IMG/VR virus record: IMGVR_UViG_3300044522_000116 | Coordinates: 1-23,151 of that record | Source of the DNA: a virus | Reading direction: 5' to 3' (one strand) | Length of the DNA: 23,151 nt | Shown here: positions 2,699 through 12,611 of the stretch, piece by piece | How the letters are laid out: every line of letters starts with the position of its first letter | How positions within the stretch are numbered: the stretch's first letter is position 1 | Position numbers and translations under genes: made by a program | The notes under the pieces: model-generated | What the model was told of the DNA's origin: nothing | Database searches by the model: none | Seen by the model: only the letters and a program-made list of their open reading frames with translations

Positions 2699-2884
2699 AT
2701 GAACGAGAAACTTGAAGCTGCAATTACTTACCTGCGTAGTCGAAACAAATACATTATCGATGTGGGGTGCAAGTTCATACCGACGAAGCCGGTGCTAACT
2801 GATGTTGCCGAGACCATCCGCAAGTATCGTATGGAGGTGGAGAACGTAGCACCAGTGCAATTGGTGAAGGGCAAGAAGAAATGA
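2699..2884 (+). CDS. hypothetical 61-residue protein
   Basis: A small soluble protein with a helical N-terminus (LEAAITYLRS) and a basic tail ending GKKK; it has one Cys and no motif I recognise. The start is the ATG at 2699, preceded by a purine-rich GGGGAAAT site. Its stop overlaps the next gene's start (ATGA at 2881-2884), so it is translated as part of the operon. The small size and phage-typical overlap support a real gene; the function is unknown. Confidence 0.7.
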   Translation: MNEKLEAAITYLRSRNKYIIDVGCKFIPTKPVLTDVAETIRKYRMEVENVAPVQLVKGKKK

Positions 2885-3147
2885 AATGCGACTGCGGGGG
2901 GAATACGCGTGTGCTGGACAGTCGAGGGGTGAACAGGCGCAGGGAGTGCCTCAAATGCTGTATGCGCTTTTCGACCGAGGAAGTCGTTGTCACCAAGCCA
3001 GAGAAAAAAAAAGTCCAAACTAAAAAGCGTGTCAAAAACATCCTGCCGGCAAACAACTGGCAACAACTGGCAAAGAACATCAGTGCACGCCGAAAGTTGG
3101 AAGAACTTCGCGACACCATAAAAGAAGATGACTATGAAAATTACTGA
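2881..3147 (+). CDS. NrdR-like zinc-ribbon protein without ATP-cone
   Basis: The first 35 of 88 residues resemble the N-terminal zinc ribbon of the ribonucleotide-reductase repressor NrdR: DSR at residues 13-15, RRREC (19-23), then CxxC and RFSTEE. Ligand candidates are C3, C5, C23 and C26 (C27 adjacent); note C-x-C rather than the usual C-x2-C at the first pair. The ATP-cone of NrdR is absent, replaced by a Lys-rich linker and a basic helix. It could bind DNA or RNA, perhaps acting as a small regulator or decoy, but this is inference. It overlaps the upstream gene by 4 bases and the following nuclease gene by 14 bases. Confidence 0.75.
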   Translation: MKCDCGGNTRVLDSRGVNRRRECLKCCMRFSTEEVVVTKPEKKKVQTKKRVKNILPANNWQQLAKNISARRKLEELRDTIKEDDYENY

Positions 3148-3679: not shown

Positions 3680-3910
3680 ATGAAACCGTATGTCATTGAT
3701 GGGAAGGTGATGTTTAAACGCATGGTCGTAGTGCTGGTGGCAGGGCTGTTTGTTGGCGCTGCTGCGGCAGCGGTTGGGTATCGGGTCAAGGAAGTCGAAC
3801 CGGCGATGCAGAAGGTCGCGCTGTCGGTATGCCCACTGCCGCAGACGGAAGGTGAGATGACTGTGTATGTTGTTGAGAACGGTAAGATCAAATGCTGGAG
3901 GTGGAAATGA
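3680..3910 (+). CDS. small membrane-anchored protein
   Basis: A 76-residue protein with one strong hydrophobic segment (about residues 13-32, Val/Ala/Gly-rich) after a short charged N-terminus, then a polar domain containing two Cys and ending CWRWK. The likely topology is N-in with the C-terminal part in the periplasm. The start at 3680 has an excellent GGGGGAG site six bases upstream and begins two bases after the previous stop. No family is recognised. It sits next to another small membrane protein, so the pair may act together at the host membrane, but nothing shows how. Confidence 0.65.
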   Translation: MKPYVIDGKVMFKRMVVVLVAGLFVGAAAAAVGYRVKEVEPAMQKVALSVCPLPQTEGEMTVYVVENGKIKCWRWK

Positions 3911-4176
3911 GTAACGAATCACTTGTAAAGAAACTCAGAGTAATCGCGCTACTGAATAGAGGCGTGTCCGAGATTTATATTGAGAAAGCCGCCGACGAAA
4001 TTGAGAGGCTTGAAGGGCTGCTGGCGGAGGCGCGAGAAGAAGGAAGGATTGCGGGGCTGCGAGAAGCAAAAGAGATTATCAACAACCTTACAAAAAACCG
4101 GACAAAAGAAGATTTTTATCCAGACGCGTATGACTGCCGAGACGCAATCACCCGCGCAGCGGAGGGGATGAAATGA
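3907..4176 (+). CDS. hypothetical coiled-coil protein
   Basis: An 89-residue, Glu/Lys/Arg-rich protein with a clear heptad-like helix around residues 22-60 (EKAADEIERLEGLLAEAREE and onward), so probably an oligomeric coiled coil. The start at 3907 overlaps the upstream stop (ATGA) and has a perfect GGAGG six bases before it. Its stop overlaps the QueD-like gene start by four bases, which places both in one translational chain. No function is recognised. Confidence 0.7.
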   Translation: MSNESLVKKLRVIALLNRGVSEIYIEKAADEIERLEGLLAEAREEGRIAGLREAKEIINNLTKNRTKEDFYPDAYDCRDAITRAAEGMK

Positions 4177-4571
4177 AAACATCATGGCCCCGCGTTGAGT
4201 GCAGGGTAAGCGTGTTATTTGACGCAGACCACGACTTGCCGCAAATGAATAAACAAGGAATCCATCGTCATAATTATTGGCTTGAGGCGGGTTACTGGCA
4301 GGAAATTAACCCACACACCGGATGCACTAAAACCATGTCTGATATGCGCGTTGACGTTGACGAAATAGTTGAGAAAATTAAAAACAAAAACTTAAACGAT
4401 ATGCTGCCGGTAACTCCAACGGCTGAGTTCTTGGCTTGTTGGTTTCTGATGCAGTTACCGGCCTATTGGGATTTTGTGGTTATCCGCTGTTACGGCGGAT
4501 TTGAGTGTCGTATAGACCGTAAAAACATGACCCAAGCATGGAAGGATAACGTCAGTGCTTGTCCTGCTTGA
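4173..4571 (+). CDS. QueD/6-pyruvoyl-tetrahydropterin synthase-like protein with altered active site
   Basis: A 132-residue protein matching the T-fold QueD/PTPS family in order: FDADHDLP (H20), HRHNYWLE (H31, H33) giving the zinc-binding His triad, MRVDVDEIVEKI, LND (74-76), then PTAEFLACW (82-90) and a terminal VVIRCYGG strand. QueD makes 6-carboxy-tetrahydropterin on the route to preQ0 and 7-deazaguanines. The usual catalytic residues look lost: the Cys four residues before the HxH is K27, the Asp-His pair before the LN motif is replaced by Lys/Asn, and the Glu near the C-terminus is Cys/Tyr. It overlaps the transglycosylase-like gene by 17 bases, implying a joint role in base modification. 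It may bind a pterin or deazaguanine without normal QueD chemistry. The fold call is good; the function is inferred. Confidence 0.72.
   Translation: MKTSWPRVECRVSVLFDADHDLPQMNKQGIHRHNYWLEAGYWQEINPHTGCTKTMSDMRVDVDEIVEKIKNKNLNDMLPVTPTAEFLACWFLMQLPAYWDFVVIRCYGGFECRIDRKNMTQAWKDNVSACPA
4542..4546 (+). promoter_or_regulatory. ribosome binding site for the transglycosylase-like gene
   Basis: AAGGA lies 8 bases before the GTG at 4555, inside the end of the QueD-like gene. It decides the GTG start, since no ATG is nearby and the next residues (LVLLDTS) form the expected first beta strand. Confidence 0.6.
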
Positions 4572-5157
4572 TACAAGTCAAAAGCTAGACGTTTGCGCCG
4601 CAGAGCTTGGGTGCGAGGTCGAGCAGTTGCTAACGCCATTGACTCGCTATAAGTTGCAGCGCCCTGAGTCTAGGTTTGCAATTGACAATGGCGCATTTTC
4701 TGCGTTTGACGCAAAGGCTTTTAACGCATTGCTGGCGAGGGAATACGACCGCCGAAGCCAGTGTATTTTCGTTTGCGCCCCTGATGTTGTTGCGTCAGCT
4801 CGCAGAACGCTTGAGGTATTTGACCGCTGGAAAGATAGGCTAAATGATTGGCCTGTCGCTTTGGTCGCGCAGGATGGACAACAGGACTTGCCGATACCGT
4901 GGGATGAAATAAAAGCAATATTTATCGGCGGCACCACAGAATTCAAGCTATCTGAGTCAGTTATGCAAATTGTAAAGGCGGCAAAAGCATTGGATAAGTG
5001 GGTTCATGTCGGGCGGGTAAATACACCGGGGCGTTTTGAATATTTTGAAAAGATGGGCGCTGATTCTATCGACGGAACTGGACTTTCTCGTTACTCATGG
5101 ATGCGCGAGAAAATTTACATAGAACATAGACAACCGGAGCTTGTATGCCTTTCCTAA
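4555..5157 (+). CDS. tRNA-guanine transglycosylase/DpdA-like protein, short form
   Basis: A 200-residue protein whose motifs follow the TGT barrel in order: IDNGAFS (D44, compare the TGT DSGGFQ Asp), APDVV (D77), VAQDG (Q106, compare VQGG), FIGGTTEFKLS (123-133, compare the GG substrate loop), HVGRVNTPGR (151-160) and GADSIDGTGLSR (168-179), with D173 aligning with the TGT nucleophile in the DCVxPTR motif. DpdA proteins are TGT relatives that put 7-deazaguanines into DNA in bacteria and phages. Here the protein is about half the length of bacterial TGT and lacks the C-terminal CxCxxC...H zinc site. It uses a GTG start and overlaps the QueD-like gene, so the two are co-translated. Likely substrate: host- or phage-made preQ0-type base and phage DNA; this is inferred. 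A tRNA or other substrate is possible. Confidence 0.75.
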   Translation: MLVLLDTSQKLDVCAAELGCEVEQLLTPLTRYKLQRPESRFAIDNGAFSAFDAKAFNALLAREYDRRSQCIFVCAPDVVASARRTLEVFDRWKDRLNDWPVALVAQDGQQDLPIPWDEIKAIFIGGTTEFKLSESVMQIVKAAKALDKWVHVGRVNTPGRFEYFEKMGADSIDGTGLSRYSWMREKIYIEHRQPELVCLS

Positions 5158-5381
5158 CCGAACTAAAAGACGTTTTAGCAAACTCAAACGCAGCACTCGC
5201 CGGAGTATTCCTCCGCAGTCACGCAAAAGAAATCGCCGCGCTGGTTGAGGCTGTGCAGGGTGAGCATGGTGGAGAAATCAACAATCCTCGATGCCCTATT
5301 TGCATCGCCATCGCCGCGCTGGACAAAGAGCCAATAGACCCCAACAAATGGGCCTTTGACCGGGGGCTGGAGAGCTACTAG
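5145..5381 (+). CDS. hypothetical 78-residue protein, last gene of the plus-strand operon
   Basis: A small helical protein with a central CPIC pair (CPICIAIAAL) and a polar C-terminus ending in RGLESY. The two cysteines alone are not a full metal site. The ATG at 5145 overlaps the transglycosylase-like gene by 13 bases and follows CCGGAGC five bases upstream. Its TAG at 5379-5381 overlaps the holin stop on the other strand. It may belong functionally with the QueD-like/DpdA-like pair because of the overlap, but no domain supports that. Confidence 0.65.
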   Translation: MPFLTELKDVLANSNAALAGVFLRSHAKEIAALVEAVQGEHGGEINNPRCPICIAIAALDKEPIDPNKWAFDRGLESY

Positions 5382-5770
5382 CGCCGTTTGAGAGCGTCAG
5401 CAATCCCTGGCGCTATCTTTTCAACACTTCTTCCAACCACATATCCGCCAAGCCCAAACTCAACAATCGACCACAGTTTGATGTATTCGGCCTCGGCCAG
5501 GTTGGGTGCTGCCCATCCGAACCATCGCGCAACGATCAGGCCGAGGAATACCAGCATGGTGATCGGTCGCCAGTTTGCCGCCAGCCAGTGCGACGAGGCT
5601 GCTTCGGCCTGGATGATGGATGCCGCCGCAGTCTCAATCTGCTGCTGGTGCTGCATCAACTGAACCAACACCTCCTGCTCGGCTTTGGCCTTCTGCTCAG
5701 GATCGGGGAAAAGATTGCCGACCACCTTCCCAAGTATAGGGGCCAGCGCCGGGATTAGAAGATTGAGCAT
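5378..5770 (-). CDS. holin, three-TM family
   Basis: A 130-residue protein with a hydrophobic N-terminus (about 1-20), a polar Gln/Glu-rich middle, and two further segments (about 70-88 and 98-113). The SHWLAANWRPITMLVF segment is the recognisable signature of the phage Holin_3TMs family. It forms inner-membrane lesions that release or activate the endolysin. The start is the ATG at 5770, preceded by GGAG with an 8-base spacer; the longer frame up to 5929 runs inside the endolysin gene and is rejected. It is the last gene of the late operon and lies one base after the endolysin stop. The stop overlaps the convergent plus-strand gene. Confidence 0.85.
   Translation of the reverse strand: MLNLLIPALAPILGKVVGNLFPDPEQKAKAEQEVLVQLMQHQQQIETAAASIIQAEAASSHWLAANWRPITMLVFLGLIVARWFGWAAPNLAEAEYIKLWSIVEFGLGGYVVGRSVEKIAPGIADALKRR
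5379..5415. repeat. inverted repeat at the convergent gene junction, possible weak terminator
   Basis: TAGCGCC at 5379-5385 and GGCGCTA at 5409-5415 are perfect 7-base inverted arms separated by 23 bases. On the plus strand they are followed by TCTTTTC, a poor U-tract. The element could end the rightward transcript, but it also encodes the holin C-terminus, and the loop is long. A fortuitous repeat is possible. Confidence 0.3.
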
Positions 5771-5771
5771 G

Positions 5772-6134
5772 TTAGTAGCTCCAGATCGTTGGCCTGGGTG
5801 CGTCTGCCAGATCGTCAACGTGGATAAAACGACCACCTCCCTTCTGATTGATTCCAATTCCGGTAAAACCGTGGTCAAAAGCCAGCTTTGCGATCCGGTA
5901 TGCGTCTGCCCTGTCCACATCGAAGTCAATCGCTCTGCCGGTAGTATGTGGGCCGGTAGCGCCGGTCTTGGATACCTTGGCGTTGTGCGTTGGGCATCGG
6001 GCCGCGCTGGTGATGCCTAGAGGCTTCCCGAAGGCAATCCGCAGGCGTTCCACCTTGTCCATAAAGTCCTGCGCCGGCAGCATTCCGCAGCCGCATTTGC
6101 AGGCCAGTTCCGCGTTGCTAAAATGTGGAGTCAT
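5772..6134 (-). CDS. endolysin, M15 family peptidoglycan peptidase
   Basis: A 120-residue single-domain M15 (VanY/L-Ala-D-Glu or D-Ala-D-Ala type) metallopeptidase. Zinc ligands are visible: H63 and D70 in GPHTTGRAID, and H105 in FIHVD, with an acidic residue at D107 next to it. SAARCPTHN (43-51) is the usual substrate-side segment. An N-terminal CKCGCG cluster (12-17) is common in phage members of this family. It would cut the peptide part of the host cell wall; it lacks a signal peptide, so export depends on the holin next door. It overlaps the upstream small lysis gene by four bases (ATGA). Confidence 0.92.
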   Translation of the reverse strand: MTPHFSNAELACKCGCGMLPAQDFMDKVERLRIAFGKPLGITSAARCPTHNAKVSKTGATGPHTTGRAIDFDVDRADAYRIAKLAFDHGFTGIGINQKGGGRFIHVDDLADAPRPTIWSY

Positions 6135-9889: not shown

Positions 9890-10243
9890 TTACAATCCTT
9901 CGCCTGGTGTTACGTAAACCGTTCCTGCCACAGTCGTCACAGCGGAAAAATAAGAATTGACGGAAAATCTCAAGATTTCCACTGCGCCTGCAACCAGCGG
10001 TATGCCTGCGCCTGGTGTTCCGGCTGTGGCCGCTACCGCCGCCGCCGTTGCCAGTGCCGCAGTTGGGCCTACGCCGATGTGAACCAGCGCCGATCCGTTG
10101 TTCACAAAGCGGTATTGGCCTACTGCCTGCGCTGTGATTTGTGTGCGAACCGGGACTTGTAGTCCTGCTGGTGCCACTGGGTTTGCCGCGATTACTACGG
10201 TGTTGCCCAGTGGGGCGAAGGCGATCTGACTGTTGTTTGACAT
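9890..10243 (-). CDS. small beta-rich virion protein, unknown
   Basis: A 117-residue Ala/Val/Gly/Thr-rich protein with alternating beta strands (RFVNNGSALVHIGVG, FSVNSYFSAVTTVAG) and no catalytic motif. The composition and layout resemble the other small virion proteins at 15742-16077 and 17457-17792, though I cannot show homology. The start at 10243 follows AGGAGAAT at somewhat long spacing (about 11). It lies between the gp16-like ejection protein and the fiber, so a capsid, tail or fiber attachment role is plausible. Confidence 0.7.
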   Translation of the reverse strand: MSNNSQIAFAPLGNTVVIAANPVAPAGLQVPVRTQITAQAVGQYRFVNNGSALVHIGVGPTAALATAAAVAATAGTPGAGIPLVAGAVEILRFSVNSYFSAVTTVAGTVYVTPGEGL

Positions 10244-10244
10244 T

Positions 10245-12611
10245 TTATTGATTCTCCTGGTCGAATTGTCGCTCGGCTTGGGTTGCTGTCTGCAACCATT
10301 GAATCCTTGCGTCTAGTGCTTTTGGGATTTTAGCTGCGTCTGCAAAATTCTGGAATGATTGTGACATGGCAGTGCGTCGAATACTATTTGCACTGGGTGT
10401 TCCCTTCGTCGCGGCTTCGATGGCAAGTTTCTGAAACCCATCATCAGCAAAGAGTTTACCTGCCGCCTTGAGCGCATCCTTATTGCCTTGCGTCATGGCG
10501 CTGGTGATCACCGATGTGGCTGCTGCTGCAATAGGGCCACCCATTGCGGCTGCACCAGTTACCACGCCTTTGGCAAGGGTGCTCTCCATGACCTTACCGA
10601 TCAGGCTTTCGGCCTGCATACCCTGCAGTAGCGCCTGGTTTGCCTTGCCGGTGGTCAGCACATTGGCTCTGGCTTCGGTGACGCGCTTGGAAACTTCAAA
10701 CAGGTCACGCAGAACATCTGCCGATTCCTTGCCGAGAGTATCCACGATGGTCTTGTAGACGGGAGGATTGGCACGCAGTTTGGGGTAGATGTCGGCAAAC
10801 TCAGAGAATCCGAATCCACCCTTTTCTGCACCCCTAGCCGACCGCGTAACGGATGCCAGCGCGGTGGCTATTGTCTCTTTGCGTAAATCCTCTGGAACTG
10901 CTTTTAGCAGGCGGTTGAACTCGCCGGCATCGCCTTTGGCTGCGCCTGTGATGGCGGTTCGCATCTTGTTGGCTACGCTGCCCTCGATGTCCTGGCCGAA
11001 CACATTCACGATGCGCTTGCCCAAGGCACGCTCTTTGGCGTAGAGCAGGTTGGCCGCACGTAGTTGCTGGCGCAGTTCCTCGCCGCCGATGTTGCCAACA
11101 TTCGTCAGTTGATCGTCAGCCAGTGCCGCATACAGGCGCTTTAGGTCTGCCTCGGCCATGCTGCCGTAGGGTGACTCCATCTTGTTTAGAGCCTTGCCGA
11201 TCAATCCCTTTTCGCGCTTGAGTAGCCCGTAGGTCACATTTCCGCGCTCAATCATAAGCGCCAGTTTTTTCTCGGCTGCGGACATGCCTTCTTCGGTGAC
11301 TTCTGCCTTGATAGCGTCGAGGGTTGCTTTGAGCTTTGGCAGTTCGACCACTGTTGTCTTTGGCACCACTTCATCGACCGCATCGTAAACCTTGCCAGCC
11401 TGCTTATTGAGGTCTGATCGGGTGGCGGTCAGCGAGTCCTTGATTTTCTGCGAGACCACGCCAGGCGCAACTGCGCCTTCCACAAAGGTGGCGTCGAATT
11501 GCTTGATTACATCGTCGGCCTTGTCAACGGCTTGCGATACGGTAGTTCGCCATGCGGACTCTGCCTCGCTGCCTGCCGCAGATCGGGTCAGTCCTGCGGC
11601 TGCTCGGACTTGCGGGTTGTCGCTGAACACGTCAGCCGGCAGTTGGATGCCGAGCCGGTCGGCGGCTTCCTTGGCTGCTAGATTGACCTGGGCAAGATCG
11701 GCCAGCCGGTCGCGTGCGCCGGCAGATCCAAAGCCTGTGCCTGCCGCTTGCTTAACCAGCTTTCCGACTTCTTCCTCGGCCACTTCCGCCACAACCGGGG
11801 CCACTGGTGCTGCCGGGGCCACTGCTGGGGCTGCTGCAGGGGCTTCTGGGGCCATTGCCGCACCCATTGGAGCACCTGGGGCCACCGCAGGCGCAGGCGC
11901 TGCCGCAGGACGCCCTGTGACGCGCTGTGCGACCTTCTTGACCGTTTGCACGACCGGAGGGGCCACGCGCTGCAAAATCTGCCCTGCCGGGCCGGTTGCG
12001 CCAGCCAGCAATACCTCGCCAGTGTCAAACTTGCCGCCAGTTCCTGCTTGACTTGCTTCAATGGCTGCTTGGGTAGCACCAGCGCCAATGATGGCACCAG
12101 GAATAGTTGCGGCTCGGCCAGCCGGCGTAAAGGCTGCAATGGCTCCGGCAGCGCGGGGAATGTCGCCCAGGCTGAAGCCTGGCGGTATTGCGTATTCCTT
12201 TTGATCGACCGACGAGCGCAACAGGTAGTTGCCTTTGGCATCTTGTCGAATCTGAACGCCAGGGAAGTTGGCCTGTAAAATCTGCACCGTCTCCTTCGGA
12301 TTACTCAGGAGTGTGCCGAGGGCTGTCTTGAACGATGCCACGCTCATCTGGTTCAGTTCCGGCATACTTGTCCACTCAGGCAGCGTCTGGGTCTCAGGCG
12401 TTGCGCGTGCGCGTCCTGTGACCGACTCGGCTATACCTTCAAAAAATCCCATCTTGGGCTGCTCTGCTGGAGCTGGTGGCTCAAGAGCCGCCGCACCACC
12501 ACCAGCACGAATTAACGCCACCCGAGCCTTTAGATCAGACGAATCTGGCGCAACATCGTCAGGGATGTTGTTAATGGTGATGCCATCTTTTGTGGTGATG
12601 GAATAAGCCAT
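10245..12611 (-). CDS. internal virion/DNA-ejection protein at the P22 gp16 position
   Basis: A 788-residue protein, third after gp7- and gp20-like proteins as in P22. Residues 1-150 are polar; about 153-215 form a Gly/Ala-rich amphipathic or hydrophobic stretch (AAGAIAAF, IPGAIIGAGATQAAI). An Ala/Pro linker follows (about 235-280), then a long charged helical region and a second hydrophobic block near 670-715 (GVVTGAAAMGGPIAAAATSVI). This fits a protein that leaves the capsid and inserts in or crosses the host envelope during DNA delivery. Sequence identity to P22 gp16 (609 residues) is not obvious, so the call rests on position and composition. No lytic-transglycosylase motif was seen. Confidence 0.75.
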   Translation of the reverse strand: MAYSITTKDGITINNIPDDVAPDSSDLKARVALIRAGGGAAALEPPAPAEQPKMGFFEGIAESVTGRARATPETQTLPEWTSMPELNQMSVASFKTALGTLLSNPKETVQILQANFPGVQIRQDAKGNYLLRSSVDQKEYAIPPGFSLGDIPRAAGAIAAFTPAGRAATIPGAIIGAGATQAAIEASQAGTGGKFDTGEVLLAGATGPAGQILQRVAPPVVQTVKKVAQRVTGRPAAAPAPAVAPGAPMGAAMAPEAPAAAPAVAPAAPVAPVVAEVAEEEVGKLVKQAAGTGFGSAGARDRLADLAQVNLAAKEAADRLGIQLPADVFSDNPQVRAAAGLTRSAAGSEAESAWRTTVSQAVDKADDVIKQFDATFVEGAVAPGVVSQKIKDSLTATRSDLNKQAGKVYDAVDEVVPKTTVVELPKLKATLDAIKAEVTEEGMSAAEKKLALMIERGNVTYGLLKREKGLIGKALNKMESPYGSMAEADLKRLYAALADDQLTNVGNIGGEELRQQLRAANLLYAKERALGKRIVNVFGQDIEGSVANKMRTAITGAAKGDAGEFNRLLKAVPEDLRKETIATALASVTRSARGAEKGGFGFSEFADIYPKLRANPPVYKTIVDTLGKESADVLRDLFEVSKRVTEARANVLTTGKANQALLQGMQAESLIGKVMESTLAKGVVTGAAAMGGPIAAAATSVITSAMTQGNKDALKAAGKLFADDGFQKLAIEAATKGTPSANSIRRTAMSQSFQNFADAAKIPKALDARIQWLQTATQAERQFDQENQ

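Follow-up and report, generated by a model that had tools for sequence, protein, structure and literature searches.

The DNA analysed here, a stretch of 23,151 bases referred to below as the window, is a linear record from IMG/VR and probably represents an incomplete virus. Its + strand carries gene 1 (4173..4571, 132 aa, ATG start), encoding a QueD/PTPS-fold protein, and gene 2 (4555..5157, 200 aa, GTG start), encoding a compact TGT/DpdA-like protein of the phrog_15826 family. Both open reading frames and the 17-base overlap between them (4555..4571, +), reported in a preliminary description of this DNA, were confirmed. The GTG start of gene 2 is preceded by AAGGA ~10 nt upstream. An upstream ORF of 94 aa (3892..4176, +), for which Pfam and PHROG gave no significant family, overlaps gene 1 by 4 bases and likely forms one transcription unit with it. 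Downstream, an ORF of 78 aa (5145..5381, +) overlaps gene 2 by 13 bases and closes the early + strand run. The early genes around the pair include those for a Cas4-like exonuclease, a DEAD/ResIII helicase and a VRR-NUC nuclease; an 88-aa ORF upstream of the nuclease (2881-3147, +) encodes an NrdR-like zinc ribbon that scored slightly below the Pfam cut-off. After the early run, structural and lysis genes occupy the opposite strand, and a Peptidase M15 endolysin-like gene and a GTA-type holin gene (5772-6134, - and 5378-5929, -) lie at the strand switch just past the pair.

The closest relatives of the helicase occur in phages of 34-40 kb, several of them from Idiomarinaceae and Alteromonas, so about one third of the genome may be missing from the window. 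None of QueC, QueE, FolE or a second DpdA was found in the 23 kb, a result that describes the window rather than the phage, the record being probably incomplete. An Rfam scan of the window returned no RNA element and, thus, no catalogued preQ1 riboswitch is located there.

Gene 2 matched phrog_15826 (4.7e-37), which is annotated in PHROG as function unknown. Homologues from mycobacteriophages and Arthrobacter phages, with 40-44% identity, are annotated as 'DpdA-like tRNA-guanine transglycosylase', and the other relatives in isolated phages as hypothetical. Gene 2 had no match in Pfam or NCBIfam, with the TGT family (PF01702) giving no match up to an E value of 1, and a comparison with PDB sequences produced nothing useful. 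Profile-profile comparison (hhalign) of the gene 2 family with 12 phage DpdA sequences gave a probability of 95.5, an E value of 1.4e-8 and a score of 64.4. The controls scored far lower, reaching a maximum of 22.5 among 60 column shuffles, 16.3 for the reversed profile and 10.4 for a QueD profile. D44, D77, the GG pair and D173 of gene 2 were aligned with the corresponding DpdA positions. The preliminary description had placed gene 2 among TGT/DpdA enzymes and named the lack of any profile match as evidence against this; with the match to DpdA, the relationship holds at the superfamily level. The same method gave no significant match between gene 2 and the single E. coli TGT.

An alignment of 36 sequences identified D44 N45, P76 D77, Q106 D107 G108, G125 G126, H151, R154 and D173-G176 as invariant. 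In the AlphaFold2 (AF2) model of gene 2 (pLDDT 89.8), eight strands form a complete (beta-alpha)8 barrel, with the invariant residues at the C-terminal ends of strands 3-8 and the Asp, Asp, GG and predicted nucleophile Asp positions at the ends of strands 3, 4, 6 and 8. The motifs D-N-G-F / P-D / Q-D-G / G-G / G-R / D-G-T follow the order found in E. coli TGT (DSGGFQ / DECTP / QG / GGL / MGVG / FDC), where they make up the active site and are followed by the zinc motif CxCxxC. Gene 2 therefore resembles TGT (PF01702) in barrel fold and in the order of its active-site motifs, including the Gln, but is about half the size and lacks the C-terminal zinc site (CxCxxC...H), only 27 residues remaining after D173. 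Fold searches with the model retrieved TGTs among many other TIM barrels in the PDB (ThiG, GlpQ, pyruvate kinase) and several queuine tRNA-ribosyltransferases in a viral library. The modelled fold alone does not decide the enzyme class of gene 2. Given these mixed fold matches and the lack of a match to E. coli TGT, the assignment depends on the match to the DpdA profile, the order of the motifs and the gene context.

The curated DpdA models (NF041059 and the PADLOC DpdA model) did not match gene 2. These models perform poorly for phage DpdA, as the DpdA of Escherichia phage SHIN8 itself scored far below the NF041059 cut-off. A PADLOC NDT_II-A match of gene 2 (E 0.001, 47 residues) was weak and partial and was judged to be due to chance.

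Gene 1 exceeded the cut-off of the Pfam PTPS family (PF01242; 33 bits, cut-off 22.4) and the best PDB match of its AF2 model (pLDDT 85) was E. coli QueD (TM 0.73-0.84), although this structural match is not independent because canonical QueDs were present in the alignment behind the model. The QueD fold had been recognised correctly in the preliminary description; the role of early pathway enzyme given to gene 1 there was not borne out by its residues, which we mapped by HMMER alignment to the E. coli and P. aeruginosa QueDs. The roles of the catalytic and zinc-binding residues are well established for the PTPS family. The zinc histidines (H20, H31 and H33) align with those of QueD and are invariant across the window clade, which comprises the window and three related contigs (L010, L011 and L026). 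However, the catalytic Cys, the Asp-His pair and the pterin-anchor Glu are all replaced in the window, L010 and L011. In gene 1 the catalytic Cys aligns with Gln in one alignment and Gly in another, and the loop there is shortened; the Asp-His of the LDH motif has become Lys-Asn, and HGH has become HRH. The partner in L026 has Lys-Leu in place of Asp-His and has lost the pterin-anchor Glu; its Cys29 lies out of position, with different spacing, two residues before the first HxH histidine. In this contig the altered QueD and the gene 2 relative are separated by 141 bases, demonstrating that the 17-base overlap is not general; a small Cys-rich, zinc-finger-like ORF (L026, 7841-8000) lies between them.

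All full-length canonical QueDs in the comparison, which were mostly partners of gene 2 relatives, have kept the catalytic Cys, Asp and His and the Glu. Loss of this set was limited to the window clade, and a wider search for relatives of the altered QueD returned the same three contigs and no others. Against the NCBIfam QueD equivalog (TIGR03367), gene 1 scored 29 bits, far under the cut-off of 89.25, whereas the canonical QueD partner in contig L016 scored 94.5. Gene 1 thus shares the T-fold, the three zinc histidines and the Pfam family of QueD but not its catalytic or pterin-binding residues.

Both genes of the pair are under purifying selection. For gene 1, dN/dS was ~0.04-0.05 between the window and its two nearest relatives (dN/dS components of 0.055/1.33 and 0.071/1.46), some other pairs being saturated at synonymous sites. 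These values show that the gene is not decaying, and we ruled out a pseudogene in decay on the basis of dN/dS ~0.04. Gene 1 thus encodes a protein that is still maintained but, judged by its residues, is very probably no longer active as a QueD and should not convert dihydroneopterin triphosphate into 6-carboxytetrahydropterin. We also considered whether gene 1 might still act as QueD, or as something close to it whose catalytic residues have moved elsewhere, and boost the host supply of preQ0 to gene 2. The retained fold and zinc histidines, the strong selection, the cysteine kept by L026 close to the first HxH histidine and the pairing of similar gene 2 proteins with canonical QueD in related phages would all fit such an enzyme. 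Yet replacement of the entire catalytic set, the shortened loop, the change to HRH and the shortfall against the equivalog cut-off that the L016 partner exceeds make this unlikely.

We then asked how widely gene 2 and its neighbours are distributed. The phrog_15826-type family occurs in at least 299 places in IMG/VR and at 55 loci in bacterial genomes. With gene 2 itself as the query, 17 loci were retrieved, of which 9 had a QueD-like neighbour and 6 a QueC. Conversely, the canonical L016 QueD retrieved 53 loci, and a gene 2 relative was found within 1 kb in 46 of these, in both gene orders. An IMG/VR sample was picked by the gene 2 family profile alone, whatever Que genes lay nearby, giving 80 loci that clustering at 90% identity reduced to 47 clusters. 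In 21/47 clusters the flank contained DpdA or a gene of the preQ0 pathway: QueC alone in 7, QueD alone in 7, the altered QueD in 1, QueE alone in 1, combinations in 4 and DpdA with pathway genes in 1; the remaining 26 had none. Wherever a cluster had a near Que gene (20/20), the closest one either abutted the gene 2 relative or lay no more than 240 bases away. The pair had been described as standing without FolE, QueE or QueC in the window, and the same is true of most related phages that carry it. Across 46 records of such phages (contigs up to 61 kb, many of them fragments), the search identified QueC in 8, a weak radical SAM match in 1 and FolE in none (0/46).

On a tree of 95 gene 2 family members, partner identity switched at least 19 times (~19-20), demonstrating that the link between gene 2 and Que genes has been made repeatedly. 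This was a quick tree with many weak forks, and its well-supported branches force at least three changes of QueD. The closest family members that fall outside the window clade (L146, L012, L013, L149 and L155) have no Que neighbour, so the altered QueD appears, as far as seen, to be special to the window clade. The gene 2 family is a broad one, common among uncultured phages, that swaps its Que partners and recurrently lies against just one preQ0-pathway gene (QueD, QueC or QueE), usually with neither FolE nor a complete pathway on the same contig; about half of its members have no Que neighbour. Among isolated phages, Synechococcus phage Ssp-JY42 and Mycobacterium phage Ksquared have a gene 2 relative with neither Que nor DpdA beside it. 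Relatives lacking a Que neighbour also occur in many Burkholderiaceae genomes (L095-L140, Caballeronia and Paraburkholderia contigs), where they are often ORFs of 250-300 aa. In two distant phages, ReqiPine5 (L007, 6511-7428) and R6L (L008, 7391-8434), PAPS-reductase-like PP-loop proteins are encoded close to the relatives of gene 2; as QueC is likewise a PP-loop enzyme, they are possible additional partners.

The frequent lack of a Que neighbour, together with the mixed TIM barrels retrieved from the PDB, would be in keeping with gene 2 being a TIM-barrel enzyme with no base-exchange function and its Que neighbours being present by chance or through mobility. We consider this highly improbable, since the DpdA profile match lies far over its controls and close Que genes recur in 20 clusters, belong to three Que families and accompany repeated partner switches on the tree. 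The frequency of QueC as a partner raises a different alternative. In the CBASS and Qat systems, protein deazaguanylation is either catalysed by members of the QueC family or has been proposed for them (PMC13329287, PMC13279940). By analogy with type IV CBASS, in which a QueC-like protein joins deazaguanine to a protein, gene 2 with its Que partner could make or remove a deazaguanine-protein conjugate in counter-defence or protein modification. We regard this as quite unlikely: apart from the weak chance match noted above, the PADLOC defence models, including those for CBASS, whose type IV system has its own TGT-like protein, did not match gene 2, the QueC partner in contig L024 scored slightly above an NCBIfam QueC equivalog cut-off, and the window clade has neither a QueC nor a known target protein.

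Several phages carry a gene 2 relative as well as a full DpdA. In phages SHIN8, R29Z and Sonali and in contig L221, a separate DpdA is accompanied by FolE, QueC and QueD, with QueE present in most. In L221 (5000-6522), which has QueE alongside the other three, the gene 2 relative directly follows the full DpdA, an arrangement suggesting that the small protein may act together with DpdA. The SHIN8 relative (L003, Seuratvirus; 9932-10524) lies beside DNA polymerase and clamp genes and is broken into two overlapping ORFs, by either a frameshift or a programmed event. Since relatives of gene 2 stand beside a full DpdA, gene 2 is not simply a DpdA orthologue, and since their genomes also have the pathway, its role may differ from the main insertion step. 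Beside DpdA it may serve a second target or base, or act as a partner.

The closest known system is phage DpdA of the 9g type (Hutinet et al. 2019, PMC6884629). The two families share profile-level homology and the D / D / GG / D positions, and both co-occur with preQ0-pathway genes. However, gene 2 has 200 aa against ~300 aa, has Gln-Asp-Gly where DpdA has Phe-His, was missed by phmmer with a DpdA query and usually has one Que gene rather than the full pathway set. Based on these differences in length, motif and gene network, we rejected the idea that gene 2 is an ordinary full DpdA.

The Gln, which 9g-type DpdA replaces with His, and the TGT-like motif order would also be compatible with action of the pair on host tRNA, with gene 2 as a small TGT that inserts or removes 7-deazaguanine and so tunes host translation. 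The hosts of most DpdA-only phages do have the Q pathway (PMC6884629). Nevertheless, tRNA seems a rather unlikely target, as the C-terminal zinc site seen in tRNA TGTs is missing from gene 2, phage DpdA, which acts on DNA, is its best profile match, and its relatives adjoin genes for DpdA and DNA polymerase.

Hutinet et al. 2019 described DpdA, DpdA2 and phages that carry DpdA alone or a partial pathway, and suggested that the host supplies preQ0 (PMC6884629). Phage MED16 has modified DNA, and its DpdA groups with DpdAs from phages that have no preQ0 genes (PMC8306585). Gene 2 is like these 'singleton' DpdAs in that it too would need a host-made or imported 7-deazaguanine, but its family forms its own PHROG (15826), some members of which carry a DpdA-like annotation from SEA-PHAGES. 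Our literature search found no description of a short family with a single Que gene, or of an altered QueD beside it. Further subfamilies in a 2023 NAR study, DpdA3 and DpdA4, reportedly belong to other viruses.

The explanation we favour, and to which we give about an even chance, is that gene 2 is a minimal guanine transglycosylase using a host-made 7-deazaguanine and that gene 1 is a repurposed QueD acting as an accessory. Asp44, Asp77, Gln106, Gly125-Gly126 and Asp173 would then be the base-recognition and nucleophile positions, equivalent to the Asp, Asp, Gln, Gly-Gly and nucleophilic Asp of TGT. Gene 2 would cut guanine off the sugar, hold the sugar covalently on Asp173 and then install preQ0, or a derivative, from the host queuosine pathway. 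Its most likely substrate would be phage DNA, and 7-deazaguanine bases in DNA block restriction enzymes. DNA modification by the pair is plausible.

The predicted ancestor of gene 1 is QueD, the committed-step enzyme that related phages add and that probably raises preQ0 flux. In the window clade, this protein would have lost QueD catalysis and been retained in a different role. It would most likely assist the transglycosylase or the host pathway as a folded accessory that holds zinc; the accessory role is deduced purely from the loss of QueD catalysis. More tentatively, the pair may form a two-part base-exchange enzyme in which the altered QueD-fold protein is a dedicated subunit of the minimal 200-residue transglycosylase, possibly as a substrate holder, as a specificity or activation factor, or as the site of new zinc chemistry. 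An enzyme of synthesis would then have turned into a partner of the one consuming the product of its pathway.

Taken together, the evidence points to a widespread and somewhat unusual miniature version of a phage DNA-protection system already known, in which the gene 2 family and its repurposed partner are of more interest than the single pair. Gene 1 illustrates that a QueD-derived gene can lose the catalytic residues known for it and still be strongly maintained by selection and, for this reason, a 'QueD' annotation would mislead. For phrog_15826, a large phage family annotated as function unknown, our analysis provides a candidate function that can be tested. It also suggests that, for many phages, the host carries out most of 7-deazaguanine synthesis, the phage itself encoding only a miniature insertion enzyme and one pathway gene. 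If this reliance on the host is true, a larger set of phages would be expected to have restriction-resistant DNA.
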